From Agrococcus sp. Marseille-P2731 (GTDB lineage Bacteria > Actinomycetota > Actinomycetes > Actinomycetales > Microbacteriaceae), in the NCBI RefSeq assembly GCF_900117395.1, contig NZ_FPEG01000001.1, forward strand, positions 1 to 64,000: DNA of 64,000 nt. Direction: 5' to 3'. The notes below the pieces were generated by a model. The model made no database searches and was not told the origin of the DNA. It saw only the letters and a list, made by a program, of their open reading frames with translations. The translations under genes were made by a program, and so were the position numbers. Below, piece by piece: positions 49,961 through 64,000 of this stretch (positions within the stretch are counted from its first letter, which is position 1; each line of letters starts with the position of its first letter).

Positions 49961-49977
49961 TCGGATCCTGATCGGCC

Positions 49978-50020
49978 GCAGGGGCCCGTGCTCGAGTGCT
50001 GCTCGAGGCGGGCCCTCTGC
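49978..50020 (+). terminator. Terminator after the nuclease gene
   Basis: Interrupted inverted repeat gcaggggcccg / cgggccctctgc with an inner ctcgag palindrome, 17 bp after the stop codon. Confidence 0.75.
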
Positions 50021-50043
50021 GTCCTCCGCGTAGGCTGACGAGC

Positions 50044-51168
50044 GTGACGGAGCGCATGCTGCTGACGGTCGACCGGGCTCTGGCCGAGGGCGTCCTGGTG
50101 CCGGATGCGTGGGTCGAGACGGCAGACGGCATCATCACCGCAGTCGGGCAGGGAGCGCCGCCGCGCGCCCCCGATCTCGAGCTGCGAGGCGTCACGCTCG
50201 TGCCCGGCTTCGTCGACCTGCACTGCCACGGCGGCGGCGGCTCGGCGTTCGACGACGGGGCACCCGACTGGGAGGCCGTCGACCGCTTCCACGGCGAGCG
50301 CGGCAGCACCAGCAGGGCGGTCTCGCTCGTGACGGCTCCGCTCGACGAGCTGCTGCCGCGCGTCGCCGCCGCCGCCCGTCGCTGTGCGGTCGACCCATCG
50401 CTGCTCGGCATCCACCTCGAGGGCCCGTTCCTCGCCGACAGCCACCGCGGCGCCCACGACGCCTCGGCGCTGCGCGCGCCGACGCCCGATGCGGTCGAGC
50501 AGCTGCTCGACGCCGGCGAGGGCCGCATCCTGCAGGTCACGATCGCGCCCGAGCTGCCCGGGGCGCTCGACGCGATCGGCAGCTTCGCAGATGCGGGCGC
50601 GCGCGTCGCCGTCGGCCACACGGGCGCCGATGCAGCCACCGCTCGCGCCGCGTTCGATGCTGGCGCGACGCTCCTGACGCACGCCTGCAACGCCATGCCG
50701 CCGTTGCACCACCGCGCCCCTGGCCCGCTGGCTGCAGCGCTCCTCGACGAGCGCGTGACGCTCGAGGCGATCGCCGACGGCCACCACGTCGCCCCCGAGA
50801 TGCTCGCGCTGCTGCTGCGCTCGGCGCCGGGCCGCATCGCGCTCGTCACCGACGCGATGGCGGCCGCGGGCATGCCCGACGGCGACTACCGCATCGGTGC
50901 GCTCGACGTGCGGGTCGTGGGCGGGCTGCCGCGCCTGGCGGCAGATGGCACGATCGCCGGCTCGACGCTCACGCTCGACCGGGCGGTGCGGGTGCTCGTC
51001 GCTGCCGGCGTGCCCTTCGAGGTCGCCGTCGATGCGGCGACGCGAGCACCGGCGAATGCAGTGGGTCGCGACGACCTCGGCCGCATCCGGGTGGGTGCCC
51101 GAGCCGATCTCGTGGCGCTCGACGCGCGGCTCGAGGTCGTCGGGGTGTGGCGCGCTTCGACACGATGA
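50044..51168 (+). CDS. nagA: N-acetylglucosamine-6-phosphate deacetylase
   Basis: A 374-aa amidohydrolase from the GTG at 50044 (12 bp before an alternative ATG). PGFVDLHCHGGGG has the metal-binding His pair, IHLEGPF the active-site Glu, AVGHTGA and THACNAMPPLHHR further ligands, and ALVTDAMAAAGMPDGDY the catalytic Asp. It feeds GlcNAc-6-P to NagB. The other nag genes are 11 kb away on the other strand. The C-terminal ASTR and the stop are encoded by family B repeat B3. Confidence 0.93.
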   Translation: MTERMLLTVDRALAEGVLVPDAWVETADGIITAVGQGAPPRAPDLELRGVTLVPGFVDLHCHGGGGSAFDDGAPDWEAVDRFHGERGSTSRAVSLVTAPLDELLPRVAAAARRCAVDPSLLGIHLEGPFLADSHRGAHDASALRAPTPDAVEQLLDAGEGRILQVTIAPELPGALDAIGSFADAGARVAVGHTGADAATARAAFDAGATLLTHACNAMPPLHHRAPGPLAAALLDERVTLEAIADGHHVAPEMLALLLRSAPGRIALVTDAMAAAGMPDGDYRIGALDVRVVGGLPRLAADGTIAGSTLTLDRAVRVLVAAGVPFEVAVDAATRAPANAVGRDDLGRIRVGARADLVALDARLEVVGVWRASTR

Positions 51169-51198
51169 GCGCCTGCGGAGCGCACCGGCTCAGCGAGC
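51153..51198. repeat. Family B intergenic repeat, copy B3
   Basis: One 46-bp unit (cgcttcgacacgatgagcgcc...ctcagcgagc) overlaps the last five codons and the stop of nagA. Confidence 0.8.
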
Positions 51199-51205
51199 CG
51201 CAGGT

Positions 51206-51925
51206 CTAGTCCTCGTCAGGCTCGGCGACGACGTCCCACGTGCCGAAGCACGCCAGCCCCGCCGAGCGCGCGAGCGCGATGGAGGCTCCGTTGTCGAGCT
51301 GGCAGCGGTACTGCGGCTCGTAGCCGAGCGAGAGCGCATGGGCGCTCATCGCCCGCACCGTCTGCCGGGCGAGTCCGCGGCCCCGGAATCGCGGCAGCGT
51401 CAGCACCCCCAGGTCGGCGAGCGCCGTCTCGGGCCACGGGTACATGCTGGCGGCGCATGCGAGCTCGTCCTCCACGAAGGCGCCGAACACGAGCCAGTGA
51501 TCGAGCTCGACGAAGGCGTCGTCGAGGTCGCTCTCGGGGGCCTCTCGCTCGAACGCCGCGAAGGCCGTCGCGTCGGCGACGGTGAGCTGCCGCACGTGTG
51601 ACGGCGCGGTCGCCTGCACGAGCAGCTCATGCCCCTCGGCGGGCAGGTAGAAGAGCGCATCGGCGCCGTGCAGCGAGAGGTCCGCCCGCTGCAGCGCCGC
51701 CGCGAGCTGCGCCGAGCCGACGGTGCCGCCGTGCACGAGGCCGAGCGCGCGCGCGATCGAAGGAGTGGCGGAGACGATGCCGGCACCGTCGGTGGGCTCG
51801 AGCACCGCCAGGCGCCGATTCTGCGGCAGGGTCTCGTCGACGACCACGCCGAGCTCGCCGTTCGAGACGGGTGTGGCATCCGCAGACAGGGGCAGCCAGT
51901 ACTGGGTGACAGTGCTCGAGAACAT
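51206..51925 (-). CDS. GNAT-family acetyltransferase
   Basis: A 239-aa protein from the ATG at 51925 (GGAGGCG 6 bases upstream). The C-terminal GNAT domain has LGVLTLPRFRGRGLARQTVRAM (acetyl-CoA loop R-x-x-G-x-G/A) and YRCQLDNGASIALARSAGLACFGTW. The N-terminal 120 residues are a separate region that may bind the substrate. No specific substrate is evident. Confidence 0.85.
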   Translation of the reverse strand: MFSSTVTQYWLPLSADATPVSNGELGVVVDETLPQNRRLAVLEPTDGAGIVSATPSIARALGLVHGGTVGSAQLAAALQRADLSLHGADALFYLPAEGHELLVQATAPSHVRQLTVADATAFAAFEREAPESDLDDAFVELDHWLVFGAFVEDELACAASMYPWPETALADLGVLTLPRFRGRGLARQTVRAMSAHALSLGYEPQYRCQLDNGASIALARSAGLACFGTWDVVAEPDED

Positions 51926-51996
51926 GGGTTCGCCTCCGATGTGCGGGGGATGCCGACCACGCAGCACCGCAGGGTATCGGTGGTGTGACGGGCGCA

Positions 51997-52136
51997 CGCT
52001 TCGACACGGTGAGCGCCTGCGGCACGCACCGGCTCAGCGACCGCGCTTCGACACGGTGAGCGCCTGCGGCACGCACCGGCTCAGCGACCACGCTTCGACA
52101 CGGTGAGCGCCTGCGGCACGCACCGGCTCAGCGACC
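51997..52136. repeat. Family B intergenic repeat, three tandem copies
   Basis: The 46-bp unit cgcttcgacacggtgagcgcc...ctcagcgacc is repeated three times without a base change (51997, 52044, 52091), separated by a single g or a. It is not a CRISPR array, since no spacer-length sequences separate the units. Confidence 0.9.
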
Positions 52137-52155
52137 CGTCGCCAGCTGAGCCCGC

Positions 52156-55100
52156 CTAGCGGAAGTCGCGCGACCCCGAGCTCGGCACCTCGAAGCGCTC
52201 GAGCCGATCGGCGAGCAGCGCGATGACCCCCTCGGGCGTCCGCTGCAGCATGCCTTGCACGATGAGCGCTGGCGAGTGCCGCGCGACCTGCCGCGAGTGC
52301 GCCCACAGCCCCTTCGAGATGATGACGTTCAGCATGCCCGTCTCGTCCTCGAGGTTCATGAAGGTGACGCCCTGCGCCGTGCTCGGCCGCTGCCGGTGCG
52401 TGACGACGCCCGCCGCCTGCACGCGCCGGCCGGGCTCTGCCTCAGCGAGCGCCGCGATCGGCAGCACGCCGCGGCCGTCGAGCATCGCGCGCGCGTGCCG
52501 CACCGGATGATCATCCGTCGCGACACCCGTCGACCAGATGTCGAGCGCCACCTGCTCGGAGGCCGACAGCATCGGCAGCAGCGGCGGCTGGATGACCAGC
52601 TGCGAGCCCTCGAGCTGATCCTCGCGCTCCGCCGACGCGGGGCCCGCGAGCCACAGCCCCTCCCGCCGGCTGACGCCCAGCCCCTCGAGCGCGCCAGCGG
52701 TCGCGAGCGCCTCGAGCTCGCCGCGGTCGAGGTCGGCGCGGCGCGCGAGGTCGTGGATGTCGCGCAGCGGCGCCGCCTCGCGCGCGGCGACGATGCGCTC
52801 GGCGGCCGCCTCGCCCACGCCCGCGACGCTCGTGAGCCCCATCCGCACGGCGAAGCCCGCGTCGCGCCGATGCCGGTCGCGCATCGCGAGCGTCTCTGTC
52901 GCGACCTTCGGCACGGGCGGCTGCTCCCGCTCGAGGCACGCGTCGACGCCTGGCCTGCGCTCGCCGTGCCGCTCGAGGCCAGCGACGATGCCCGACCGCG
53001 CCACGTCGGGGCGCAGCGTCTCGACGCCGTGCCTCGAGGCATCCTTCACGAGCGTCTGCGGGGACCAGAACCCCATGGGCTGGCTGCGCAGCAGCCCAGC
53101 GAGGAACGCCGCCGGGTAGTGCAGCTTGAGCCACGACGAGGAGTAGACGAGCTTGCCGAACGCGAGCGAGTGCGACTCGGCGAAGCCGAAGCCCGCGAAG
53201 GCCTCGATCTTGCGGTAGATCGACTCGGCCGTCTCGTCGTCCACACCGTTCGCGGCCATGCCCGCGAAGAGCTTCGCCTTGAGCGCCTCGATGCGCTCCC
53301 GCGATCGCTTCGAGCCGATCGCGCGGCGCAGCTGGTCGGCCTCGCCGGCGTCGAAGCCGCCGACCGCGACCGACATCTGCATCAGCTGCTCCTGGAACAG
53401 CGGCACCCCGAGGGTGCGCTCGAGGACCGGCACGAGCAGCGCGTGCGGATAGGTCACCGGCTCGGCACCGGTGCGGCGGCGGATGTAGGGGTGCACCGCA
53501 CCGCCCTGGATGGGGCCGGGGCGGATGAGCGCGATCTCGATCACCAGGTCGTAGAAGCTGCGCGGCTTCAGCCGCGGGAGGGTGGCCATCTGCGCGCGCG
53601 ACTCGACCTGGAACACGCCCACCGCATCCGCCTCGCACAGCATGTCGTAGACCCCCGCCTCCTCGGCGGGGATCGACCCGATCGACCACTCCTCGCCGAG
53701 GTGCTCGCGCGCGAGCTCGAGGGTGTGCGACATGGCGCCGAGCATGCCGAGGCCCAGCAGGTCGAACTTCACCAGGCCCATCCACTCGCAGTCGTCCTTG
53801 TCCCACTGCAGCACCGTGCGATGCTCCATGCGCGCGGGCTCGATGGGGCAGACCGTGCCGACGGGCTGCTCGGTGAGCACCATGCCACCCGAGTGGATGC
53901 CGAGGTGGCGGGGCGCGTGCAGGAACTCGCCGGCGAGCAGCGCGACCGGCTCGGGGATGCCGCTGTCCTCGTCGATGCGCGAGTAGGACTCGACCGACTT
54001 CGACCAGGCGTTCTGCTGCCCGACGGCATAGCCGAGCGCCTTCGCCGCGTCGCGCACCGCCGACTTCGGGCGGTAGGTGATGACGTTGGCGACCTGCGCG
54101 GCGTTGCGGCGGCCGTAGCGCTCGTAGACGTGCTGGATCACCTCTTCGCGCCGGTCGGCGTCGAAGTCGATGTCGATGTCGGGCTCCTCGGTGCGCATCA
54201 TCGAGATGAAGCGCTCGAAGGGCAGGTCGTAGCGGATGGGGTCGACGGCGGTGATGCCGAGGATGAAGCAGACGGCGCTCGCGACGGCCGAGCCGCGGCC
54301 CTGGCAGAGGATGCCGCGGCTGTGGGCGAACTCGGCGATCTCGAACACGATGAGGAAGTAGCCGGCGAAGCCCTTCTCGTCGATGAGGCGCAGCTCGTGG
54401 TCGAGCCGCCCCCGCACCGAGGGGCTGGGTGCGCCGTCTGCGCCGGTGTCGTAGACGCGCGGCAGCCGCTCGTCGACGAGCGCCCGCAGCCAGCTCATGG
54501 GGGTGTGCCCCGGTGGCACCTCGGTCTTCGGCAGGGCGGGGGATGCGGCGCGCAGGTCGAAGGCGAGGTCGCGCCCGAGCGCCGCGGCCGTGTCGACGGC
54601 GCCGGGGAACGCGCGGAAGCGACGGGCCATGACGGCGCCCGAGCGCAGCGACGGCACGCCGCCGGCGGGCAGCCAGGCGTCGAGCTCGTCGATCGAGCGG
54701 CGGGCGCGCACGGCCGCGACCGCGTCGCCGAGCTGCTGCCGGGCGGGGCTCGCGATGTGGGCGTTGGTGGTCGCGATCATCGGCAGCCCGCGGCGCTCGG
54801 CGAGGTCGGCGAGCACCCGGTTGCGCTCGTGGTCGCGCGGGTCGCCGATGTCGCTCAGCTCGACCACGACGCGATCCCGACCGAAGAGCGACGCGAGCCG
54901 GTCGAGCTCGTGACCGGCGGCATCCGCCCCGTCTGCGTCGGCACCGAAGCGGTCGAGCGCCTGGCGCACGGTGCCCTTGCGGCAGCCCGACAGGATCATC
55001 CACTCGCCGCGCGCGGTCTCGGCGAGCCGCTCGAGCTCGAAGATGGGCCGCCCCTTCTCGCCCGGCCGGCCGCGGCTGTCGGTCGAGAGGTAGCCGTCGG

Positions 55101-55554
55101 TGAGCGCCGAGGCGAGCGCCGAGTAGCCCGTCGGGCCGGTCGCGAGTGCGACGAGGTGGCTGCCGTCGGGGTCGGGGATGCCGTGCTGCGGGGTCTCGAG
55201 GCCGAGCGAGAACTCGGTGCCGAAGACGGTGGGCAGCTGCGCCTCTGCGGCGGCCTCGGCGAAGCGCACCGCGCCGTAGAGCCCGTCGTGGTCGACGAGC
55301 GCGAGCGCCTCGAGGCCGAGCCTGCGCGCCTCGTTCACGAGCTCTGCCGGGCTCGAGGCGCCGTCGAGGAAGGAGTAGTGCGAGTGGGCGTGCAGCTCGG
55401 CGTAGGGCGTCGAGGCGCTCGGCACGCGGATGCGCGGGCGCCGCGCCTCGTCGAGCTCCTCGGCGCGCGGGGTCTTGCCCGCCCCGACGTCGCGGTCGCT
55501 GAGGATGCCCTCGAGCTCGCGCCACGGCATCGCCGGGTTGTTCCAGCCGGCCAT
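52156..55554 (-). CDS. dnaE2: Error-prone DNA polymerase DnaE2 (ImuC)
   Basis: A 1132-aa family C polymerase. The PHP domain begins YAELHAHSHYSFLDGASSP (about 50), with LALVDHDGLYGAVRF and TTNAHIA. The palm has GRGSAVASAVCFILGIT and the catalytic acidic run PDIDIDFDADRREEV (about 455-470). The C-terminal OB fold reads AAGVVTHRQRPSTAQGVTFMNLEDETG. The length (shorter than DnaE1) and motifs fit ImuC/DnaE2, which does damage-induced mutagenesis with ImuA and ImuB. It is 168 bp downstream of imuB, with a hairpin and tandem repeat in the gap. Confidence 0.95.
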   Translation of the reverse strand: MAGWNNPAMPWRELEGILSDRDVGAGKTPRAEELDEARRPRIRVPSASTPYAELHAHSHYSFLDGASSPAELVNEARRLGLEALALVDHDGLYGAVRFAEAAAEAQLPTVFGTEFSLGLETPQHGIPDPDGSHLVALATGPTGYSALASALTDGYLSTDSRGRPGEKGRPIFELERLAETARGEWMILSGCRKGTVRQALDRFGADADGADAAGHELDRLASLFGRDRVVVELSDIGDPRDHERNRVLADLAERRGLPMIATTNAHIASPARQQLGDAVAAVRARRSIDELDAWLPAGGVPSLRSGAVMARRFRAFPGAVDTAAALGRDLAFDLRAASPALPKTEVPPGHTPMSWLRALVDERLPRVYDTGADGAPSPSVRGRLDHELRLIDEKGFAGYFLIVFEIAEFAHSRGILCQGRGSAVASAVCFILGITAVDPIRYDLPFERFISMMRTEEPDIDIDFDADRREEVIQHVYERYGRRNAAQVANVITYRPKSAVRDAAKALGYAVGQQNAWSKSVESYSRIDEDSGIPEPVALLAGEFLHAPRHLGIHSGGMVLTEQPVGTVCPIEPARMEHRTVLQWDKDDCEWMGLVKFDLLGLGMLGAMSHTLELAREHLGEEWSIGSIPAEEAGVYDMLCEADAVGVFQVESRAQMATLPRLKPRSFYDLVIEIALIRPGPIQGGAVHPYIRRRTGAEPVTYPHALLVPVLERTLGVPLFQEQLMQMSVAVGGFDAGEADQLRRAIGSKRSRERIEALKAKLFAGMAANGVDDETAESIYRKIEAFAGFGFAESHSLAFGKLVYSSSWLKLHYPAAFLAGLLRSQPMGFWSPQTLVKDASRHGVETLRPDVARSGIVAGLERHGERRPGVDACLEREQPPVPKVATETLAMRDRHRRDAGFAVRMGLTSVAGVGEAAAERIVAAREAAPLRDIHDLARRADLDRGELEALATAGALEGLGVSRREGLWLAGPASAEREDQLEGSQLVIQPPLLPMLSASEQVALDIWSTGVATDDHPVRHARAMLDGRGVLPIAALAEAEPGRRVQAAGVVTHRQRPSTAQGVTFMNLEDETGMLNVIISKGLWAHSRQVARHSPALIVQGMLQRTPEGVIALLADRLERFEVPSSGSRDFR

Positions 55555-55575
55555 CGCTCCCCCTTCCCCTGCTGC

Positions 55576-55616
55576 TGCGCCTGCCTGCGCCTGCCTGCGC
55601 CTGCCTGCGCCTGCCT
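55576..55616. repeat. 10-bp tandem repeat in the imuB-dnaE2 gap
   Basis: The unit ctgcctgcgc is repeated about four times, just upstream of the dnaE2 start on its leader. The 10-bp period could change leader length or promoter spacing by slippage. Confidence 0.8.
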
Positions 55617-55655
55617 CGTCCGCCTCATCCGCCGTTCTTCAACCGGTCTCCCGGT

Positions 55656-55682
55656 GGTTCGACCGGGCTATCCGGTCGAACC
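55656..55682 (-). terminator. Hairpin between imuB and dnaE2
   Basis: A perfect 11-bp stem (ggttcgaccgg / ccggtcgaacc) with a 5-base loop lies in the imuB-dnaE2 gap. It may be an attenuator or the end of the imuB transcript. Confidence 0.55.
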
Positions 55683-55722
55683 CCCTCCATGCCGGTTGAC
55701 GGTCGCCGGCGTGCTGCGCCCC

Positions 55723-57276
55723 TCACGCATAACGGCCCTCGGCGAGCCAGGCGCCGTCGGCGTGCAGCAGTACCCAGGCCTCGCCCTCGCCGTCGAGCAG
55801 CTGCAGCCGGTGCACGACGTCGCCGAGCTCGCGCCGCCTGATCGGCCACGGCCCCGCCCACGTCACCACCCGCCGCCGCGGCGCGGCGGGCGGCGAGAAG
55901 ACGGCGGGGGATGCCTCGCGCACGTCGAGCGCGCTGGGCTCGACGGCGAGACCGGCGGCATCGACGAGCAGCACCGGCAGCGGCGGGCGGAAGACGACGG
56001 AGGGCCGCGGTGCGGGCAGCGCGCCCGGCCAGGGTCCGACCGGCTGCGGCGGTGCGGCGTCGCCCCACGGGGTGAGCACGCCGCGCTCGGCCAGCAGCCT
56101 GCCGCCGCCGGTCGCCGCGGTGAGCACTGCCTCGCGCCCCAGCATGCTCTGCAGCCGCTCGAGCGCGTGCTTCGTGCGGTCGTCGATGTCGCCGCCGCCC
56201 CACAGCCCCGGCATGTGCTCGGTGTCGGCGTCGAGCCGCTCTGGCAGCGCCTCGACCTCGACGAGCGCCGAGCCGAGGTCGCTCTCGGCGAGCTGCCAGC
56301 GCATCCGGTCGACGATGTCGCTCGCGCGCAGGAAGCCAGGCTGCCGCCAGAGGCGCTCGCTCACCCGCCCCTCCTCGGCGCGCAGCAGGATGCGGATCTC
56401 GCTGCACACGAGCCGCTGCTCGGCCAGCTGCCGCACGAAGCGCTCGACCGGCTCGCGCACCGCGAGCGCCAGCTCTGCCACGCCCTCGATGCCGGGCTCG
56501 AACACGAGCCGCAGCACGCGCTCCTCCCCCAGCCCCGCCTCGTCGACGCGGCGGTCGTCGAGCCCGCGAGCACGGGAGAGGGCGATGAGCCCCGCGGCGC
56601 CGAAGCGATCGCGGATGCTCGCCTCCGGCAGCTGCGCGAAGTCGCCCAGCGTGTGCACGCCGAGCCGGTGCAGCATGCCCGGCAGCTCATCGTCGCCCAG
56701 CACCCCGACGGGCAGCGCGCTCAGGAACTCCTGGCTGCGCCCCTCGGGCACGATCGTGTCTGCGGCCGCGGCGAGCTCGGCGGTGAAGCGATCATCGGCG
56801 ACGCCGAACGCCGCCGTCAGCCCCAGCGCCGCGAGCGCCGAGCGCACCGCCTCGATCGCGCGCGGCTCCGAGCCGTAGAACCTGCTGGCCCCCCGCATCC
56901 GGAACGCCAACGCCCCGTCGCCGATGGGCTGCGCGGCGGGCACGACCGCGAGCACCGCGCGCACGACCTGCTCGAAGGCGAGCGCCTCGCCCACCGGGTC
57001 GGCGGGCGCGAGCGCGAGCATGGGCGAGGCCGACTGCGCGTCGCGCACCCGCATGCCGACCCGCACGCCATCGGCTCGAGCCCCTGCGTCGCAGGCGACG
57101 ACCCGCAGCGCGTGGGTGATCGCGCCCGGCACGCCGGCCTCGCCGCCAGCGGGCAGCGCGCCGGTCTGGCGCGCGACGACGACCGCCCAGTCGGGCACGC
57201 GCAGCACGCCGATGCGGCTGTCGCGCTGCGGGGTGGCGCGCGACTGCGCGCCCCGCTCCATCGTCTGCTCTGCCAT
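55723..57276 (-). CDS. imuB: Y-family polymerase-like mutasome protein ImuB
   Basis: A 517-aa protein from the ATG at 57276. It has the Y-family fold, but the acidic residues needed for catalysis are absent: the first motif reads [16 protein letters not shown] and the second [11 protein letters not shown], with no DMDAFF or SIDE, as is usual for Imu[17 protein letters not shown] and [22 protein letters not shown] are the thumb/helix-hairpin-helix part, and [10 protein letters not shown] a putative clamp-interaction region. ImuB links DnaE2 to the sliding clamp. A perfect LexA box sits 10 bp before the start codon. Confidence 0.92.
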
Positions 57277-57286
57277 GCATCCATGA

Positions 57287-57302
57287 TCGAACACACGTTC
57301 GA
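57287..57302. promoter_or_regulatory. LexA (SOS) box before imuB
   Basis: TCGAACACACGTTCGA is a perfect match to the actinobacterial LexA palindrome TCGAAC-N4-GTTCGA. Confidence 0.9.
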
Positions 57303-57358
57303 ACGCAGTCAAGCGGATGCGGTGTGTCGCGATCAGCCTGCACCGCACGCGGGCATGC

Positions 57359-57396
57359 GGAGGTGCGGGACGCTGTCGTACGCGCCCCGCACCTCC
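57359..57396 (-). terminator. Terminator after the LPQTG surface-protein gene
   Basis: An 11-bp perfect stem (ggaggtgcggg / cccgcacctcc) lies just beyond the minus-strand stop codon at 57404. It separates this gene from imuB. Confidence 0.8.
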
Positions 57397-57403
57397 CTGC
57401 ACA

Positions 57404-59800
57404 TCACTGCATGCTGCGGACGCGACGTGCGCCCAGCATCAGCAGTGCACCGAGCGCCAGCAGACCGAGCGCCATCAGCAGGGCTGCGGAGTGCTCCGCG
57501 CCCGTCTGCGGCAGCATCGCCGCCGAGCCGCCCGCGGCCGACGGGTTCGCCCCGTCGTCCGCCGGGCGGTCGATCACCGGGAGGTCGGCCTTGCCGTCGT
57601 CGCCCGGAGTGCTGGGCTCACCGGGCATGTTCGGCTCGCCAGGGGTGCCCGGCTGGCCGGGGGTTCCCGGCTCACCCGGGGTGCCCGGCGTACCCGGCTC
57701 ACCCGGCGTACCAGGCTCACCCGGGGTACCCGGCTCACCCGGCGTACCAGGCTTACCCGGGGTACCCGGGGTACCCGGGGTACCCGGGGTACCCGGGGTA
57801 CCCGGGGTACCCGGGGTACCCGGGTCACCCGGCGTACCAGGCTCACCAGGCGTACCAGGCTCACCCGGGGTACCAGGCTCACCCGGGGTACCCGGCTCAC
57901 CCGGGGTACCCGGCTCACCCGGGGTACCCGGCTCACCTGGGGTTCCCGGGCCCGTCACCGCGCTGCAGTCGCTCGACGACGCATCGCCGATGAGGCCGAT
58001 CGCGTTGCAGGAGACGTTCACCGGCACCGAGACGCCGATGCTGCCGAGCAGGCCCGAGAGCAGCCCGTCGTCACCGGAGGTCGAGCCGTTGCCCGACCCA
58101 GTGGTCGCGGAGGAGTCGACCGTGGACCCCTCGCTCGTCGCGTCGCCCAGCACGGCGATCGCGTTGCCACCGACAGCCACGGGAACCGCGGCCTCGATGA
58201 CGGTCTGCAGACCGCCCAGCAGGCTGTCGTCACCGGAGGTCGACGGAGCATCCGACGAGCCGGAGCCCGTCGTCGCGCCAGCGTCCGAACCGGTGCTCGT
58301 CGCGTCACCGACGACGCCGACAGCGTTGCCGCCAGCGACGATCGGCGCCACGACATCAGCGACCACCTGCGTGCCACCCAGCAGGCTGTCATCACCGGAG
58401 GTCGACGGAGCATCCGACGAACCGGAGCCCGTCATCGCGCCAGCGTCCGAACCGGTGCTCGTCGCGTCACCGACGACGCCGACAGCGTTGCCGCCAGCGA
58501 CGATCGGCGCAACCACATCAGCGACCACCTGCGAACCACCCAGCAGGCTGTCATCACCCGAGGTCGACTCGGCAGCATCCGACGAACCGGAGCCCGTCAT
58601 CGCCCCAGCGTCCGAACCGGTGCTCGTCGCGTCACCGACGACGCCGACAGCGTTGCCACCAACGACGATGGGCGCCACGACATCAGCGACCACCTGCGTG
58701 CCACCCAGCAGGCTGTCGTCACCGGAGGTCGACGGAGCATCCGACGAACCGGAGCCCGTCATCGCCCCAGCGTCCGAACCGGTGCTCGTCGCGTCACCGA
58801 CGACGCCGACAGCGTTGCCGCCAGCGACGATGGGCGCCACGACATCAGCCACCACCTGCGTGCCACCCAGCAGGCTGCCGTCACCGGAGGTCGACTCGGC
58901 AGCATCCGACGAACCGGAGCCCGTCATCGCCCCAGCGTCCGAACCGGTGCTCGTCGCGTCACCGACGACGCCGACAGCGTTGCCGCCAGCGACGATGGGC
59001 GCCACGACATCAGCCACCACCTGCGAACCACCCAGCAGGCTGTCGTCTCCCGAGGTCACCGGCGCATCCGACGAACCGGAGCCCGTCATCGCCTCAGCCG
59101 ACGAGCCCTCGCTGTGCGCGTCACCGCCCACACCGACAGCATTGCCGCCCGTGATCACGGGCGCTGCGACGTCGTAGACCTCCTGCGTGCCGCTGCCGAC
59201 ACCGTCGTCACCCGAGGTGGCAGCAGGAGCGCTCGCTCCTGCATCCCCGGTCGACGCGGTGCTGCTCGAGTCGGTGCTCGTCGCATCGCCCAGCACCGCG
59301 ACCGCGTTGCCCGAGATGTTCACCGGCACCGAGACGTCGCCGAGCAGCTGGGTGCCGCTCAGCACGCTGTCATCACCGGACGTCGATGCCGCCGCGGCGT
59401 CGCCGCCGCCTGAGCTCGTCGTCGCGGTCGAGCCCTCGCTCGTCGCGTCGCCGAGCACGCCGACCGCATTGCCTGCGATCGTCACCGGCAGGTCGACGTC
59501 CACGAGCGCCGTCGTGCCCGAGAGCACGCCGCCGATCCCGGAGGTCGAGACGCCGGCCGACGGCGCTTCCGCCGACGAGTCCGACGTCGTGTGCGCATCC
59601 GTCGACTCGGCATCGCCGAGCAGACCGAGGGATGTGCCGCTGATCGTCACCGGCAGCGAGACATCCACCACCGCCTGGTTCCCTGCACCGAGGCCGTCTG
59701 CGCCCTCGGTCTCTGTCGCACTGGCGATGCCAGTGCCTGCGGCCCACAGGCCGCCCGCGACCGCTGCTGTGCACAGCGCTCGCCACATGAGCTTGTTCAT
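57404..59800 (-). CDS. Sortase-anchored surface protein with chaplin-like repeats and a collagen-like stalk
   Basis: A 798-aa secreted protein. Signal peptide to about residue 28 (ASA|TE). Residues about 35-600 are eleven repeats of about 54-60 residues around [17 protein letters not shown], resembling chaplin cores ([21 protein letters not shown] in the last copy, with two Cys). The middle five are nearly identical. Residues about 617-733 are a collagen-like GTPGEPG stretch, followed by a linker and an LPQTG sorting signal (763-767), a hydrophobic span and ARRVRSMQ. Sortase would fix it to peptidoglycan. Surface adhesion or hydrophobicity is inferred. The antisense reading lacks these signals. 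Confidence 0.9.
57761..57820. repeat. 9-bp in-frame tandem repeat (ggggtaccc) in the collagen-like region
   Basis: Seven GGTACC sites follow each other with an exact 9-bp period. Each unit codes for one Gly-Thr-Pro triplet, so gain or loss of units keeps the reading frame. Confidence 0.9.
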
Positions 59801-59883
59801 TGCTCTGCCTTTCCTGATTGGAGTGATCCGCCATCCCGCTCCGGGACGGCTGTGCATGCCGCGCGAGCGCGGCAGGGGATCGC

Positions 59884-61185
59884 TCAATCAGGACTTGCGG
59901 TGTGCTCCTCGACGATCGAGGCGGGGGCGCGATCGTTCGCGATCGCGCCAGCCTGCCCGCCCGAGAGCTCGGGCAGCAGGTGGTCATGGGTGTCCGCCAC
60001 AGCGGCGGCGGCTCCGGCGGCAGCGCCGCTCGCGCCAGCCGGCGCAGCCGGCGCGACCGCGGGAGCAGCGGGCGCCTCGATCGGCACGGCGCGCTCGCCG
60101 ACCGTGGGCAGCGCTCCAGGCTGCGGAGCCTCGACCGTCGTGACGGCGGCAGGCATCGGCGCGAAGGTGAGTGCCGCCATCACGCGGAGCGCGAGGGTGT
60201 CGGCAGCGTCGGGGGCGTCGGATGCGTCCACGGCGCTCGCGTCGTCGGCCTGCGTCGTCGGGGCGGGAGCCGGGGTCTGGAGGATCGGCGCTGCGGGTGC
60301 CGGCGTAGCGGGGATCGGCTGCGGCGACGGGCTCGGGACTGCGGGGGTCGGGACTGCGGGGCTCGGGCTCGAGGGGACCGGCACCACAGGGTTCGGAGCT
60401 GCGGGGCTCGGGTTCGGCGTGACTGCCTCGACCACGTCCACGACCGGGTCGAGCACCGGGTCCAGCGCCTCTTCGACGACGTCGACGACGGGCTCGGTCA
60501 CCGGCTCCAGCGTCTCCTCGACGGCGTCGACGACCGGCTCGGTCACCTCAGTGACCAGATCGCCGACGGGCTGCGTCACCTCGGTCACCAGATCGCCGAC
60601 CGGCTGCGTCACCTCGGTCACCAGATCGCCGACCGGCTGCGTCACCTCGGTCACCAGATCGCCGACCGGCTGCGTCACCTCGGAGACCAGATCGCCCACC
60701 GGCGCCGTCACCTCGGAGACGACATCGCCCACCGGCACCGTCACCTCGGAGACCAGGTCGCCAACAGGCGCCGTCACCGCAGAGACCAGATCGCCGGCCG
60801 GCTGCGTGACCTCGGTGACCGGCTCCGCCACCGCTGCGACCACGTCGCCGACGGGCGCTGCCATGTCGCCGACGAGATCTCCCGCAGGCTCCGCGACCTC
60901 TTCGACGAGGTCGCCGACCGGCTCCGCCACTCCGCCGACCAGCTCGCCGACGGGCTCCGTGACCTCTCCGGCCAGGTCGCCGACCGGCTCCGTCACACCA
61001 CCGACCAGGTCGCCGAGGTCCTGCACGAGCCCTGTGGTGGATCCGCCGACCGCCTCATCACCGGCCGCATGCGCAGGCATCCCGCCTGCGAAGAGGAACA
61101 GCGCCGCGGCTCCGATCGTCGCGGTGCCGCTCGCGAGCGCGAGGCGCAGCAGGCGGGGCTGCCTGCGCGGTGCGCTCGCGTCCAT
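59884..61185 (-). CDS. Secreted 11-residue-repeat (PVGDLVxEVTx) protein
   Basis: A 433-aa protein with a signal peptide ending AHA|AG at residue 40. Residues about 53-256 are a chain of 11-residue units PVGDLVTEVTQ, with hydrophobic positions in a regular order, a form seen in helical or beta-helix surface fibres. Residues about 257-320 are Pro/Ser/Ala-rich, and the rest is Ala/Pro-rich without a sorting signal or membrane span, so it is probably released or bound by other means. A good GGAGGACC ribosome site is present. I do not recognise a described family. Confidence 0.8.
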   Translation of the reverse strand: MDASAPRRQPRLLRLALASGTATIGAAALFLFAGGMPAHAAGDEAVGGSTTGLVQDLGDLVGGVTEPVGDLAGEVTEPVGELVGGVAEPVGDLVEEVAEPAGDLVGDMAAPVGDVVAAVAEPVTEVTQPAGDLVSAVTAPVGDLVSEVTVPVGDVVSEVTAPVGDLVSEVTQPVGDLVTEVTQPVGDLVTEVTQPVGDLVTEVTQPVGDLVTEVTEPVVDAVEETLEPVTEPVVDVVEEALDPVLDPVVDVVEAVTPNPSPAAPNPVVPVPSSPSPAVPTPAVPSPSPQPIPATPAPAAPILQTPAPAPTTQADDASAVDASDAPDAADTLALRVMAALTFAPMPAAVTTVEAPQPGALPTVGERAVPIEAPAAPAVAPAAPAGASGAAAGAAAAVADTHDHLLPELSGGQAGAIANDRAPASIVEEHTASPD

Positions 61186-61317
61186 TGCGGTCCTCCGAAG
61201 TCATGCCTTCTCGGGTGTTCTCTGGTCACGCTAGGCCGCTGGCATGGGAGAAGCGAGGAATCTCAGAGCATTCACAGCAATTCTGCTCGCCTCCCAGTTC
61301 TGCGGAGTGTGAAAGAT

Positions 61318-62007
61318 TCACGCGGCCGATCTGCGCGCTTCCACCGCCCGCATCCCCGGCCCACCCGTCCTGTCGATGGGGATCCTCGCGAAGCTCGGAG
61401 CCCCGCCGGTCGCCACCTCGACGACGAGGCCGCCGGCAGCGATCCGCCCGTCGCCGTCGGCGAGCCCCTGCCACTCGGCGCGCACGCTGCGCACCACGGT
61501 CGCTGCCCCATGCCACGGCCCCGCGATGAGCAGCGTCGACGAGGCCTGCCGCAACCGCGCGGCGAGCCGAGCAGCATCCGTCGGCGTCACCCTGCCGGGC
61601 GAGGCGGCGAGCACCACCGGCATCGCCTCGGCCAGGCTCGCCACCACATCGAGCCACGAGCGGCCCGGATGCGGCACGAGCGCCACGCGGTCGATGGGCA
61701 CCCCGAGGTCGCGGGCCGCCTCGATGCCGAGATCGGGGAGTCCGACGATCGCGCCCCAGGCACCTGCCGGCATCACCGCCCCCAGGCACGCGAGCGCGAG
61801 CCCTCGCGACTCGATGCTGTGCACGGCACCCGCACGCAGGCGCCGCACCACCTCGTCCAGGCCCTCCAGCATCGACTCGTCGGGCACCGGCGCCTGCTGC
61901 GTGGTGGCCTGCTGCATGCCGCGGAGCCGCGCGCGCAGCGCTTCGACCGTCGCCGTGCGGTCGTCTCCCGTGCGGCGCTCGAGTCGTGCTGGAACCCGTG
62001 TGCTCAC
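61318..62007 (-). CDS. imuA: Mutasome accessory protein ImuA (actinobacterial ImuA')
   Basis: A 229-aa protein of the ImuA' type, related in shape to RecA-like/SulA-like proteins but without an intact Walker A (GAVMPAGAWGAIVGLPDLG replaces it). Conserved pieces are GAVHSIESRGLALACLGAVMPAGAWGAIVGLP and the Arg-rich end. With ImuB and DnaE2 it forms the mutagenic translesion complex. GTG at 62007 is used, 9 bp after a perfect LexA box. Usually next to imuB; here it is separated by 3.9 kb of surface-protein genes. Confidence 0.85.
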   Translation of the reverse strand: MSTRVPARLERRTGDDRTATVEALRARLRGMQQATTQQAPVPDESMLEGLDEVVRRLRAGAVHSIESRGLALACLGAVMPAGAWGAIVGLPDLGIEAARDLGVPIDRVALVPHPGRSWLDVVASLAEAMPVVLAASPGRVTPTDAARLAARLRQASSTLLIAGPWHGAATVVRSVRAEWQGLADGDGRIAAGGLVVEVATGGAPSFARIPIDRTGGPGMRAVEARRSAA

Positions 62008-62016
62008 ACTCCATGA

Positions 62017-62032
62017 TCGAACGTGTGTTCGA
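62017..62032. promoter_or_regulatory. LexA (SOS) box before imuA
   Basis: TCGAACGTGTGTTCGA is a perfect TCGAAC-N4-GTTCGA palindrome. It and the imuB box are the only two that I noticed in the window. Confidence 0.9.
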
Positions 62033-62103
62033 TCGCTGTCAATCGCGCGCGGCGTGTCGCCACGGCCTCGCCGACGGCCTCCGCCGGCCGCAGCGCGCGC
62101 GCA

Positions 62104-62880
62104 TCAGCGCGCTCGCAGCGCCTCGCTCGCAGCAGCCGCCTCGCGGTAGTAGTCCTGCATCCGCAGCCCGCCGGCCGCCGCCTCGTCGACGATCACGGTC
62201 GCCCGCCGATGCAGCTGCAGCACCGATCCCGGCCACATCGCCGACAGCGACCCCTCCACCATCTGCGCCACCGCCTCCGCCTTCCGCTCCCCCGTCGCGA
62301 CCAGCAGCACGCGGTCGGCATCCAGGATGGTGCCGAGCCCCTGCGTGATGCAGTGCGTCGGCACGTCGTCGGCGCTCGCGAAGAAGCGCGCGTTGTCCGC
62401 CCGCGTGCGCACCGACAGCGACTTCACCCGCGTTCGTGAGCTGAGTGACGAGGTCGGCTCGTTGAACCCGATGTGCCCGTTCGCCCCGATGCCGAGCAGC
62501 TGCAGGTCGATGCCGCTGATCGCGATCCGCCGCTCGTAGCGCGCGCACTCCGCCGCGAGGTCGGCGGCGTCGCCCTTGGGCACGTGCACTCGCGCGGGAT
62601 CGAGGCCGAGCGGCGCCGTCACCTCCCTCGCGATCACCTCGCGGTACGACTCCGGGTGCCGCCTGGCCAGCCCGACGTACTCGTCGAGCGCGAACGCCGA
62701 CACGCGCGAGAGATCGAGGCCCGCCTCCCTCCTGGCGGCGAGCGCGCGGTAGGTCGCGAGGTGGCTCGAGCCGGTCGCGACGCCCAGCACCGCATCGGGC
62801 ATGGCCTCCACGACCTCGGCGACCCGCGCGGCGGCGAGATCGCCGGCAGCTGCGGCGTCCGCGACGATCACGACCTCCAT
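62104..62880 (-). CDS. nagB: Glucosamine-6-phosphate deaminase
   Basis: A 258-aa protein: VLGVATGSSHLATYRAL binds phosphate, FALDEYVGL carries the catalytic Asp/Glu, and LLGIGANGHIGFNEPTSS holds the second Asp/His region. It converts GlcN-6-P to fructose-6-P and ammonia. Its start lies 13 bp inside the end of the ROK kinase gene, so the two are translationally coupled. Slightly short versus E. coli, with no allosteric C-terminal helix. Confidence 0.95.
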   Translation of the reverse strand: MEVVIVADAAAAGDLAAARVAEVVEAMPDAVLGVATGSSHLATYRALAARREAGLDLSRVSAFALDEYVGLARRHPESYREVIAREVTAPLGLDPARVHVPKGDAADLAAECARYERRIAISGIDLQLLGIGANGHIGFNEPTSSLSSRTRVKSLSVRTRADNARFFASADDVPTHCITQGLGTILDADRVLLVATGERKAEAVAQMVEGSLSAMWPGSVLQLHRRATVIVDEAAAGGLRMQDYYREAAAASEALRAR

Positions 62881-63770
62881 GCGGCGCTCCCCATGATGGC
62901 GGCGCCCACAGCACCCGGCTGCGCACCGGGTGGCAGCAGGCGGATGCGCGCGGGCACGTCGAGCGCGCCCAGCAGCGGCGAGTCCTCGGCCCAGGCGGCG
63001 ATCCGCCCCTGCACCCCGTCGAGCAGCGGGGCGCCGAGCCCGCTGATCCCGCCGCCGATCAGCACGGCGTCGACGCCGGTCGTGAGCACGAGGCTGCGCA
63101 CCGCGTGCGCGATCCCGTCGATGAACGCCCGCCACTCGCGCTCGCCCCGCTCCTGGCCGCGCTCGGCGGCGGCCAGCATGGCGGCGGCGGGGATATCGCC
63201 CGCCCAGCGCTGTGCGAGCGACCAGCCGGAGGCGAGCGTCTCGAGGCAGCCGAGCTGCCCGCAGCGGCATCGGCTGCTCGCACCCGGCACGGGGATGTGA
63301 CCGATCTCGCCCGCCATGCCGCTCGCGCCGCGCAGCACGCGGTCGCCGAAGGCCAGCCCTGCGGCGATGCCGGTGCCGAGCCCGACGTAGGCGATCACCG
63401 CAGCGGGCTCTGCCATCAGGTGCCGGGCGCCGAGCACCGCGGCGCGCACGTCGTTGTCGACCGTGACCGCGACGCCGAGGCCCTCGCTCACCGCGCTGCC
63501 GATGTCGAGTGCCTCGATGCCGAGGTTGACGGCGCCGCGCACGAGCGTGCGGTCGTCGCCGACGATGCCGGGCACCCCGAGACCTGCGCCTTCGAGCGCC
63601 GAGCGCTCGACGCCGGCGACCGCGAGCGCCTCGCGCGCCGCCGCGACCGCAGAGGCCACGACGCCGTCGCCGCGACGCGTCGCCACCTGGTGCGAGCCGA
63701 GCACGCGCCCATGCTCGAGCACGACGGCGACCGTCGTGGTGCCGCCGATGTCGATGCCGAGCGCGCTCAT
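62868..63770 (-). CDS. ROK-family sugar kinase (probably GlcNAc kinase)
   Basis: A 300-aa protein: LGIDIGGTTTVAVVLEHG is the ATP phosphate loop, VDNDVRAAVLGARH the substrate region with catalytic Asp, and GEIGHIPV plus CRCGQLGCLETLAS the ROK zinc motif (CxCGxxGCxE). The neighbours NagB and the GH3 enzyme suggest N-acetylglucosamine or a related amino sugar as substrate. It overlaps both neighbours (ATGA with the upstream gene, 13 bp with nagB). Confidence 0.9.
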   Translation of the reverse strand: MSALGIDIGGTTTVAVVLEHGRVLGSHQVATRRGDGVVASAVAAAREALAVAGVERSALEGAGLGVPGIVGDDRTLVRGAVNLGIEALDIGSAVSEGLGVAVTVDNDVRAAVLGARHLMAEPAAVIAYVGLGTGIAAGLAFGDRVLRGASGMAGEIGHIPVPGASSRCRCGQLGCLETLASGWSLAQRWAGDIPAAAMLAAAERGQERGEREWRAFIDGIAHAVRSLVLTTGVDAVLIGGGISGLGAPLLDGVQGRIAAWAEDSPLLGALDVPARIRLLPPGAQPGAVGAAIMGSAAWRS

Positions 63771-64000
63771 CGCGCGAGCATCTCGCGCAGCGCGAGCCCG
63801 CAGGCGCGCGAGGCGCCGAAGGTCGCGACGTCGGCGAGGCGGCCGGCAGACCACCCCGCGTCGACGACGAGCAGGTCGTGCCGCTCGCGCAGCGCCGCGA
63901 TGCTCGCGGCTGACTCCGGCCCGCGCTCGAGATCCTTGCCGAGCACGATGACGGGCCCTGCTTGCAGCTGCGGCACGGCGCCCGGCTCGACGACGACCGA
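63767..64000 (-). CDS. C-terminal end of a GH3-like beta-N-acetylglucosaminidase (partial)
   Basis: About 77 residues run off the right edge. GPVIVLGKDLERGPESAASI and LLVVDAGWSAGRLADVATFGASRACGLALREML look like the end of actinobacterial GH3 NagZ-type enzymes (usually VVDMGWPS...YADVATFGASR), which release GlcNAc from wall fragments. It is the first visible gene of the kinase-nagB operon. The true start is outside the window. Confidence 0.7.
   Translation of the reverse strand, partial: SVVVEPGAVPQLQAGPVIVLGKDLERGPESAASIAALRERHDLLVVDAGWSAGRLADVATFGASRACGLALREMLAR

Follow-up and report, generated by a model that had tools for sequence, protein, structure and literature searches.

A chaplin-related repeat protein with a wall-anchor signal and a putative secreted partner are encoded side by side in Agrococcus and related genera

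Chaplins are textbook functional amyloids of sporulating, aerial-growing actinobacteria, and Agrococcus is non-filamentous: what could a chaplin-like surface protein be doing there? We address this question for P0001, a protein encoded in the first 64,000 nucleotides of contig NZ_FPEG01000001.1 of Agrococcus sp. Marseille-P2731 (the whole stretch analyzed, hereafter the window). An original prediction, made from the DNA letters alone, had described it as a chaplin-like, collagen-like, LPQTG-anchored surface protein of a form not known to have been described, which could build an amphipathic or amyloid-forming layer on the wall. We favor, at a little under an even chance, the reading that the locus encodes a two-gene, chaplin-type surface-coat cassette, with P0001 as its wall-tethered half and P0002, a putative secreted protein encoded directly upstream, as the other. 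Sequence comparison establishes the domain composition of P0001, the homology of its repeat core, the gene pair, a covarying gap between the two genes, and their spread through the family. The partner gene and the structured gap are new relative to the original prediction, and the conserved partner gene cassette is a more interesting result than the form of P0001 itself.

The P0001 open reading frame (ORF) is intact, starting with ATG and running from 59800 to 57404 on the minus strand (Table 1). From the N to the C terminus it encodes a signal peptide, eleven repeats of ~54 residues, a Gly-X-Pro spacer, LPQTG, a hydrophobic segment, and a basic tail; ORF, repeat positions, and Pfam matches all agree with the 798-residue architecture first proposed (eleven repeats, Gly-X-Y stalk, sortase signal). 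The whole protein exceeds the Pfam cut-offs for Collagen (57.7 bits, cut-off 27.2), ChpA-C (PF03777; 23.0 bits, gathering score 21), and Gram_pos_anchor (21.9 bits, cut-off 20), bearing out the collagen-like and LPQTG-anchored parts of the description, and it scores 23.2 bits with the LPXTG-anchor model TIGR01167 of NCBIfam (cut-off 15.9). Each repeat consists of a 24-residue hydrophobic core followed by an S/T/G/D linker of 29-31 residues, with the core prolines at residues 50, 105, 159, 214, 268, 323, 377, 432, 486, 540, and 593. Tandem Repeats Finder (TRF) reports a 162-bp unit in 6.0 copies (91% matches, score 1541), and repeats 5-9 are nearly identical to one another. The first 40 residues, spanning the signal-peptide region, are 85% identical to those of the A. 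baldri protein. Computed for five orthologue pairs (two further loci were not picked up), ratios of nonsynonymous to synonymous substitution rates (dN/dS) are 0.35-0.69 for repeats 1-3 and 0.27-1.15 for the short signal-peptide part. Plus-strand open frames opposite the gene (57317-59413, 698 aa; 57324-59177, 617 aa) we take to be by-products of high G+C content and repetition, and weak matches to GAF_2, GAF_PdtaS, and SpoVT_C, all under cut-offs, were discarded.

We compared the repeats with a hidden Markov model (HMM) of 30 chaplin domains, each taken from a different locus that we ourselves read as Streptomyces-type. Repeats 1, 2, 3, and 11 score 11.5, 21.2, 22.1, and 18.8 bits, values reached by 0 of 1000 shuffles each, and repeat 10 scores 10.7 bits (1 of 1000 shuffles). 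With the Pfam ChpA-C model, a three-repeat segment reaches 39.8 bits (E 4e-10). The likeness could be a convergence of low-complexity V/G/A/S sequence, given that repeats 4-9 score only 5.5-7.2 bits singly, which 5-14 of 1000 shuffles also reach, and that the whole-protein ChpA-C score barely clears its cut-off. The scores of repeats 1, 2, 3, 10, and 11 speak against such convergence, as do reversed repeats, which give at most 4.8 bits, and a profile-profile comparison with chaplins, which scores 32.1 over 29 columns at 31% identity, as against at most 17.7 in 200 column-permuted controls. Convergence is thus largely refuted already, and we consider it very improbable; the chaplin-like character first proposed for the repeats stands. 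The aligned core common to P0001 repeats and chaplins is GVLSG.....V..PV.V.GN.V.V.G. Of the 57 ChpA-C positions the match takes in roughly the first 45, and in the Streptomyces-type profile it runs out at position 43-44 of 56; it spans the first two turns and stops before the third GN and the second Cys. This alignment evidence makes the repeats truncated homologues of a portion of the chaplin domain.

How close P0001 comes to a chaplin proper depends on the feature chosen. The accessible part of one account defines chaplins by three GN motifs 12-13 residues apart (PMC13251363). In P0001 the third GN is absent and the first is GT, GS, or GL in 10 of the 11 repeats; because this defining feature is missing, we do not file the protein as a chaplin. 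Chaplin domains also carry two Cys each, and P0001 has Cys in repeat 11 alone. The original prediction of a two-Cys chaplin pattern in the last repeat thus holds for the presence of the pair there and fails for its geometry: 13 residues separate C598 and C612, as against 17 in the 30 Streptomyces-type domains, and the first Cys replaces the G of the GN turn, one place later than the chaplin Cys, which precedes GN. The available portions of two reports state that the conserved Cys pair is missing in ChpE and in one ChpB domain (PMC3079736, PMC13251363), and, in the former, that the Cys-free ChpE still gives amyloid fibrils in vitro (PMC3079736), so Cys loss alone does not exclude amyloid formation by P0001 repeats. 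Like long chaplins, P0001 combines a signal peptide, assigned by inspection, with a sortase signal. The hydrophobicity of 7 of its 11 cores matches that of the chaplin core (1.12-1.23 vs 1.12), and the other 4 are lower (0.28-0.96). A search of a plasmid collection with three P0001 repeats gave no match.

P0002, the predicted partner, is encoded directly upstream of P0001 and codirectionally with it. It has a signal peptide by inspection, is V/A/P-rich with no K and no C, and ends in an acidic tail (NDRAPASIVEEHTASPD) whose consensus among partners is ..DDxLPxSPxxDTDxSPD. Our fetched loci hold 77 distinct sequences with at least 3 repeats, and a start could be picked for 61 of them. An ORF with a partner-type tail, by a loose pattern, ends within 141 nt upstream of 58 of these 61 chaplin-repeat genes, and the strict pattern P-x9-[STA]PD-stop is found for 53. 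Among 1779 other ORFs of at least 250 aa in the same loci, 96 match the strict pattern, as partners would, and 7 of the remaining 1683 match the loose one. The strict pattern has 0 matches in 30 Streptomyces-type chaplin loci (95 kb) and 0 in 60 sortase loci (218 kb); its single match in the window is P0002, and elsewhere it occurs once each in 105 of 154 other scanned loci, a set with mutual overlap rather than independent samples. Picking yielded 43 partners from 51 loci (none from 8 of them), five genes entering twice because their loci overlap; all 43 have Pro at -13 and end in PD, the ending being circular since the picking pattern required it.

The middle regions of the partners have periods often of 4, 7, 11, and 14-15 residues, and also of 3 and 8, which may fit amphipathic helices of a heptad- or hendecad-like kind. 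Ten partners compared with Pfam and NCBIfam gave nothing over cut-off; for P0002, matches to Collagen_mid and lantibiotic models fell under their cut-offs and were set aside. Judged by these tails and gene positions, the pairing of a chaplin-repeat protein with a tailed, putatively secreted partner occurs in many genera of the family. We found no description of this two-gene cassette in the mostly open-access portion of the chaplin literature that we searched.

The 83 nt between the P0002 stop and the P0001 start are themselves structured. A covariance model built from ten Agrococcus gaps matches 14 of 15 Agrococcus loci (the miss being L044), with scores of 55.9, 25.1, 24.8, and 24.5 bits for the four matched loci outside the training set (E ~0.002 for the last three); across 40 sources the best other site reaches 17.8 bits, apart from opposite-strand shadows of at most 22.4 bits, and within those sources the element is confined to this gene pair. 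Two-sided changes occur in 9 of 20 pairs, a count reached by 0 of 500 shuffles and at most 2 in slid versions, in an alignment that was fitted to the model and so leans towards it; the count of additional pair types is unremarkable (71 of 500 shuffles). The model has no match in ten loci of other genera. In 42 gaps from other genera, several of them close relatives, the median folding z-score is -2.6, with 16 below -3 and two above 0. The structure ends only about 20-26 nt before the start codon, which makes a plain terminator unlikely, and we infer a role in mRNA processing, stability, or dosage control. A search of 57200-62200 against Rfam (E up to 1) gave four matches, each well short of its gathering score and none covering the leader.

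How widespread are such repeats? PF03777 detects them in 5/24 genomes of the genus, 84/398 of the family, 36/396 of the order, and 97/394 of the class. A profile derived from the repeats, more sensitive than PF03777, finds them in 13 of 24 Agrococcus genomes and in 76 of 249 family genomes, or 30 of 85 genera. A sortase signal behind two chaplin domains is, moreover, the classical layout of long chaplins. The original suggestion of an undescribed form does not stand in view of this spread and these precedents, to which the accessible part of PMC4255298 adds chaplin-like genes already noted in a non-sporulating Arthrobacter. In the source genome one chaplin-type gene was found besides its exact duplicate, and no short chaplins were found. 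The duplicate belongs to an inverted copy of window positions 47991-64000 on the same contig (L040; G000:C3 326000-346000), 100% identical over 16,010 bp and continuing at least 3.9 kb past the window; it looks like an assembly artefact, given that identity and the 7.69% contamination reported for the assembly. A scan of genome contigs returned two loci, of which A. baldri is a true relative; the other, in Planobispora, matched on the Gly-X-Pro tract only and was rejected.

The variation among relatives bears on a more conventional explanation, namely that P0001 is a modular adhesin or spacer whose repeats form a flexible stalk of variable length, the chaplin likeness being a relic without assembly and the partner a secreted ligand or a wall protein whose co-expression has some other cause. 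Repeat number ranges from 6 to 26 in Agrococcus proteins uncut by contig ends or masking, as in length-variable adhesins, and the linkers are acidic and S/T-rich. Three orthologous loci have even swapped the body: in G015, G010, and G003 the partner, leader, signal peptide, and anchor are retained but surround another repeat, of the VDADAVVDLGDG type in two of them and a related one in G010. The locus therefore exchanges its display body, different repeats lying between the same flanking parts. A mere spacer would have no need of the hydrophobic core, PV..GN turn, and GD end that are conserved across genera, and it is to the conserved core that the chaplin match is restricted. We regard this stalk explanation as a real but doubtful possibility. 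The longest frame found, in G004 (L187 4579-9738), is open for 1720 aa and holds 26 or 27 repeats.

A second alternative takes the Gly-X-Pro tract as the defining part, making P0001 a trimeric, collagen-like fiber of the streptococcal Scl type, headed by the chaplin-like repeats. The tract includes 35 uninterrupted triplets (residues 619-723) with Pro in the Y position of all 35; the Collagen score is given above, and there is a weak Scl1/SclA match (27.7 bits, cut-off 400). We surveyed 58 proteins with at least 2 repeats and a frame running to a stop, after removing duplicates on the basis of the final 40 residues; most were fetched via PF03777, so the set is biased to chaplin-like members. 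Gly-X-Y stretches of at least 18 residues follow the repeats in only 6 of the 15 Agrococcus proteins and 2 of the 43 others among them; orthologous loci hold (DPTVPT)n, (DGT)n, (VEP)n-like, or (GEPGQP)n tracts in that place; an unrelated LPxTG protein of the same genome (L061) has a similar Gly-X-Pro tract before its anchor; and no trimerization domain appears among the Pfam and NCBIfam matches of P0001. The collagen-fiber explanation is improbable on these grounds. Because orthologues carry other tracts and L061 a similar one, we read the tract as a probable exchangeable wall-spanning spacer, in which a triple helix is possible. The top structural match for the spacer, Protein Data Bank entry 8zxl (E 1e-119), has only Gly-X-Y composition in common with it and was dismissed.

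Surface anchoring, the remaining element of the original prediction, is supported by the predicted secretion and wall-anchor signals together with a class E sortase in the source genome (228.1 bits, cut-off 160). That genome encodes four sortases, the others being one of class C and two class F-like enzymes just under their cut-off of 166 (161.1 and 150.0 bits); a pilin-like LPITG protein adjoins the class C gene (L056/L064). Class E substrates carry LAXTG and P0001 carries LPQTG. Among the surveyed proteins, Agrococcus anchors read LPxTG in 12, LAETG in 1, and are unreadable in 2; those of other genera read LAxTG in 39 and LPxTG in 1, with none in 3. A Tyr in the beta3/beta4 loop of class E enzymes has been proposed, in the available part of PMC5148588, to select the Ala of LAXTG. 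By profile alignment to a Streptomyces-type class E enzyme (5go5, not SrtE1), the corresponding position is Gln in 17/17 Agrococcus enzymes (L196-L212) and Trp in 13, Tyr in 11, His in 5, and Ser in 1 of 30 other genomes (L226-L255), so Tyr, at 11 of 30, is not general there. Exceptions to a match of loop and signal are G108 (LPATG with His) and G613 (LAETG with Ser), and in G021, which has LAETG, the only sortase match found lies far under the class E cut-off. As one event in one genus, the coincidence of Gln loop and LPxTG is a lead rather than a test.

P0002 and P0001 lie within the mutagenesis locus of imuA', imuB, and dnaE2, and the cassette could be primarily an SOS surface layer, LexA repressing imuA' and read-through inducing P0002 and P0001. 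The genes imuA', P0002, P0001, and imuB are codirectional, and the window has two boxes that we take to be LexA-type (0.02 expected), one before imuA' and one before imuB. The only two sigma70-like sites found in 57200-62200 both overlap these boxes, and no minus-strand terminator-like site was found there, in consensus scans that perform poorly for high-GC actinobacteria, which blunts this evidence. The repeat gene sits between imuA' and imuB in 8 of the 13 genus carriers, the source genome included; in G017 this order agrees across a contig break, and G002 carries repeats next to imuB on one contig, with additional ones on a second. Three carriers with a diverged imuB (G007, G008, and G014) have the pair outside the imuA'-imuB interval, and no imuB match came from ten loci of other genera for which 14-16 kb were fetched; on these two grounds it is improbable that SOS control is ancestral. 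Six of the 11 genus non-carriers yielded an imuB: in G016 and G009 only 774 and 308 bp lie between imuA' and imuB, in G011 a contig end cuts the locus, and the other three are G015, G010, and G003 with their exchanged body. The name imuB is from context; DNA polymerase IV models match its product only below their cut-offs. We consider the SOS explanation unlikely, and any SOS coupling of the cassette, if real, would be secondary.

Table 1. Features of the cassette and its surroundings (window positions, or locus positions where a locus is named)
Feature	Coordinates	Strand	Basis
Chaplin-repeat protein P0001, 798 aa, wall-anchor signal	57404..59800	-	ORF and translation; Pfam Collagen, ChpA-C, Gram_pos_anchor over cut-off
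Predicted P0001 signal peptide, residues 1-28 (..GIASA|T)	59717..59800	-	By inspection; A-x-A site inferred
Array of eleven truncated chaplin-like repeats, P0001	57953..59704	-	24-aa hydrophobic cores and 29-31-aa linkers
Cys pair C598, C612 of terminal repeat, P0001	57965..58009	-	Sequence
Gly-X-Pro (collagen-like) spacer, P0001; core of 35 perfect triplets	57584..57949	-	Pfam Collagen; sequence
LPQTG sortase motif, P0001 residues 763-767	57500..57514	-	Pfam/NCBIfam anchor models; sequence
P0001 wall-sorting signal: hydrophobic segment and basic tail (RR)	57407..57499	-	Sequence
Putative secreted partner P0002, 433 aa, 11-residue V/P repeats, no anchor	59884..61185	-	ORF; composition and tail analysis
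Conserved acidic C-terminal tail of P0002	59887..59937	-	Sequence; partner comparison
Intergenic/5' leader: closing stem GAUCC/GGAUC around two hairpins; Shine-Dalgarno-like sequence just 3'	59801..59883	-	Covariance analysis
Orthologous LPxTG proteins, like signal peptide and anchor, swapped repeat body	L180 8676-10007; L182 7439-9478; L185 (minus strand)		
imuA' (DnaE2-dependent mutagenesis accessory factor), upstream, codirectional	61318..62007	-	NCBIfam NF058630 128 bits, cut-off 65
imuB (Y-family polymerase-like), downstream	55723..57249	-	Pfam IMS 30.7 bits, cut-off 23.2
Error-prone DNA polymerase DnaE2	52156..55554	-	NCBIfam NF004225 1364 bits, cut-off 939
Presumed LexA-type box CGAAC-N4-GTTCG before imuA'	62018..62031	.	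Consensus scan
Presumed LexA-type box CGAAC-N4-GTTCG before imuB	57288..57301	.	Consensus scan

Returning to the favored surface-coat cassette, we picture its working as follows. The class E sortase would link P0001 to peptidoglycan and the Gly-X-Pro spacer would take the repeat array through the wall, where the hydrophobic cores of neighboring molecules could pair as beta-strands and, like chaplin cores, give a coat that is hydrophobic or adhesive. P0002 would be the soluble co-component, standing in for the short chaplins, and the leader RNA would set the dose of P0001 relative to P0002. Read-through from imuA' might add DNA-damage control, the cassette lying between two LexA-boxed units, but this is a guess. 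A more specific version, which we put forward tentatively as possible, is a two-component coat of non-filamentous Micrococcales in which an anchored multi-chaplin-repeat protein and an obligate partner acting via its free acidic tail are made from one message, with the gap setting their ratio.

Several observations weigh against the coat. The distal part of the chaplin domain is absent from the P0001 repeats, the middle repeats (4-9) are individually weak as described above, and the array is strongly acidic, with 69 D/E but not one K/R across residues 30-618, which is not what a purely hydrophobic coat would show. From a 51-row alignment (the window and 50 of 51 segments, L016 being excluded for masked letters), AlphaFold gave no fold for three repeats, with a mean predicted local distance difference test score (pLDDT) of 45.6 and a predicted template modeling score (pTM) of 0.26; because the control of 30 Streptomyces-type chaplins does as poorly (44.9), this "disordered" outcome is not evidence against a chaplin nature. 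The chaplin repeats are not essential to the locus, as the three Agrococcus genomes with another repeat body indicate. Among the 61 scored genes, L072 and L080 are without a partner tail and L086 is a near miss (..SPVAAHDTTPG); that set came mostly via PF03777 or the derived profile and so favors chaplin-like members, and 16 further distinct genes or fragments, mostly cut fragments, were left unscored for want of a start call.

Comparison with known systems places the pair closest to the chaplins of Streptomyces. P0001 shares with the long chaplins ChpA-C its signal peptide, several chaplin domains, and C-terminal sortase signal, but where they have two complete domains it has eleven truncated ones lacking the third GN turn; its Cys are confined to the last repeat, at another spacing, its sorting motif is LPQTG in place of LAXTG, and, no short chaplin having been found in its genome, it has an upstream secreted partner of another type. 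In function only, P0002 may be compared with short chaplins and rodlins as a secreted, unanchored companion of an anchored chaplin-related protein; unlike them, it has no chaplin match and no Pfam or NCBIfam family over cut-off, is V/A/P-rich, and shows heptad- or hendecad-like periods. Scl1/SclA share the Gly-X-Y tract and LPXTG anchor with P0001 and differ in score, as given above, and in that the tract is not conserved in P0001 orthologues. CwpA and CwpB of Actinoplanes missouriensis, in the accessible part of PMC13251363, are class E sortase substrates thought to render the surface hydrophobic; unlike P0001 they have no chaplin domains, according to the authors there.

The LPxTG signals and the altered class E loop bear on the published idea of sortase specificity, as far as the available part of PMC5148588 sets it out. 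The partner tail and the covarying leader offer two concrete handles for mutation, and P0001-type repeats are a naturally repeated building block that could be displayed on the wall. If the two-component coat is real, it would be a functional counterpart of the long and short chaplin system of Streptomyces, and chaplin-type coats would not be bound to aerial growth. A widespread chaplin branch in simple rods and cocci would open the question of what role the chaplin domain had before aerial growth.

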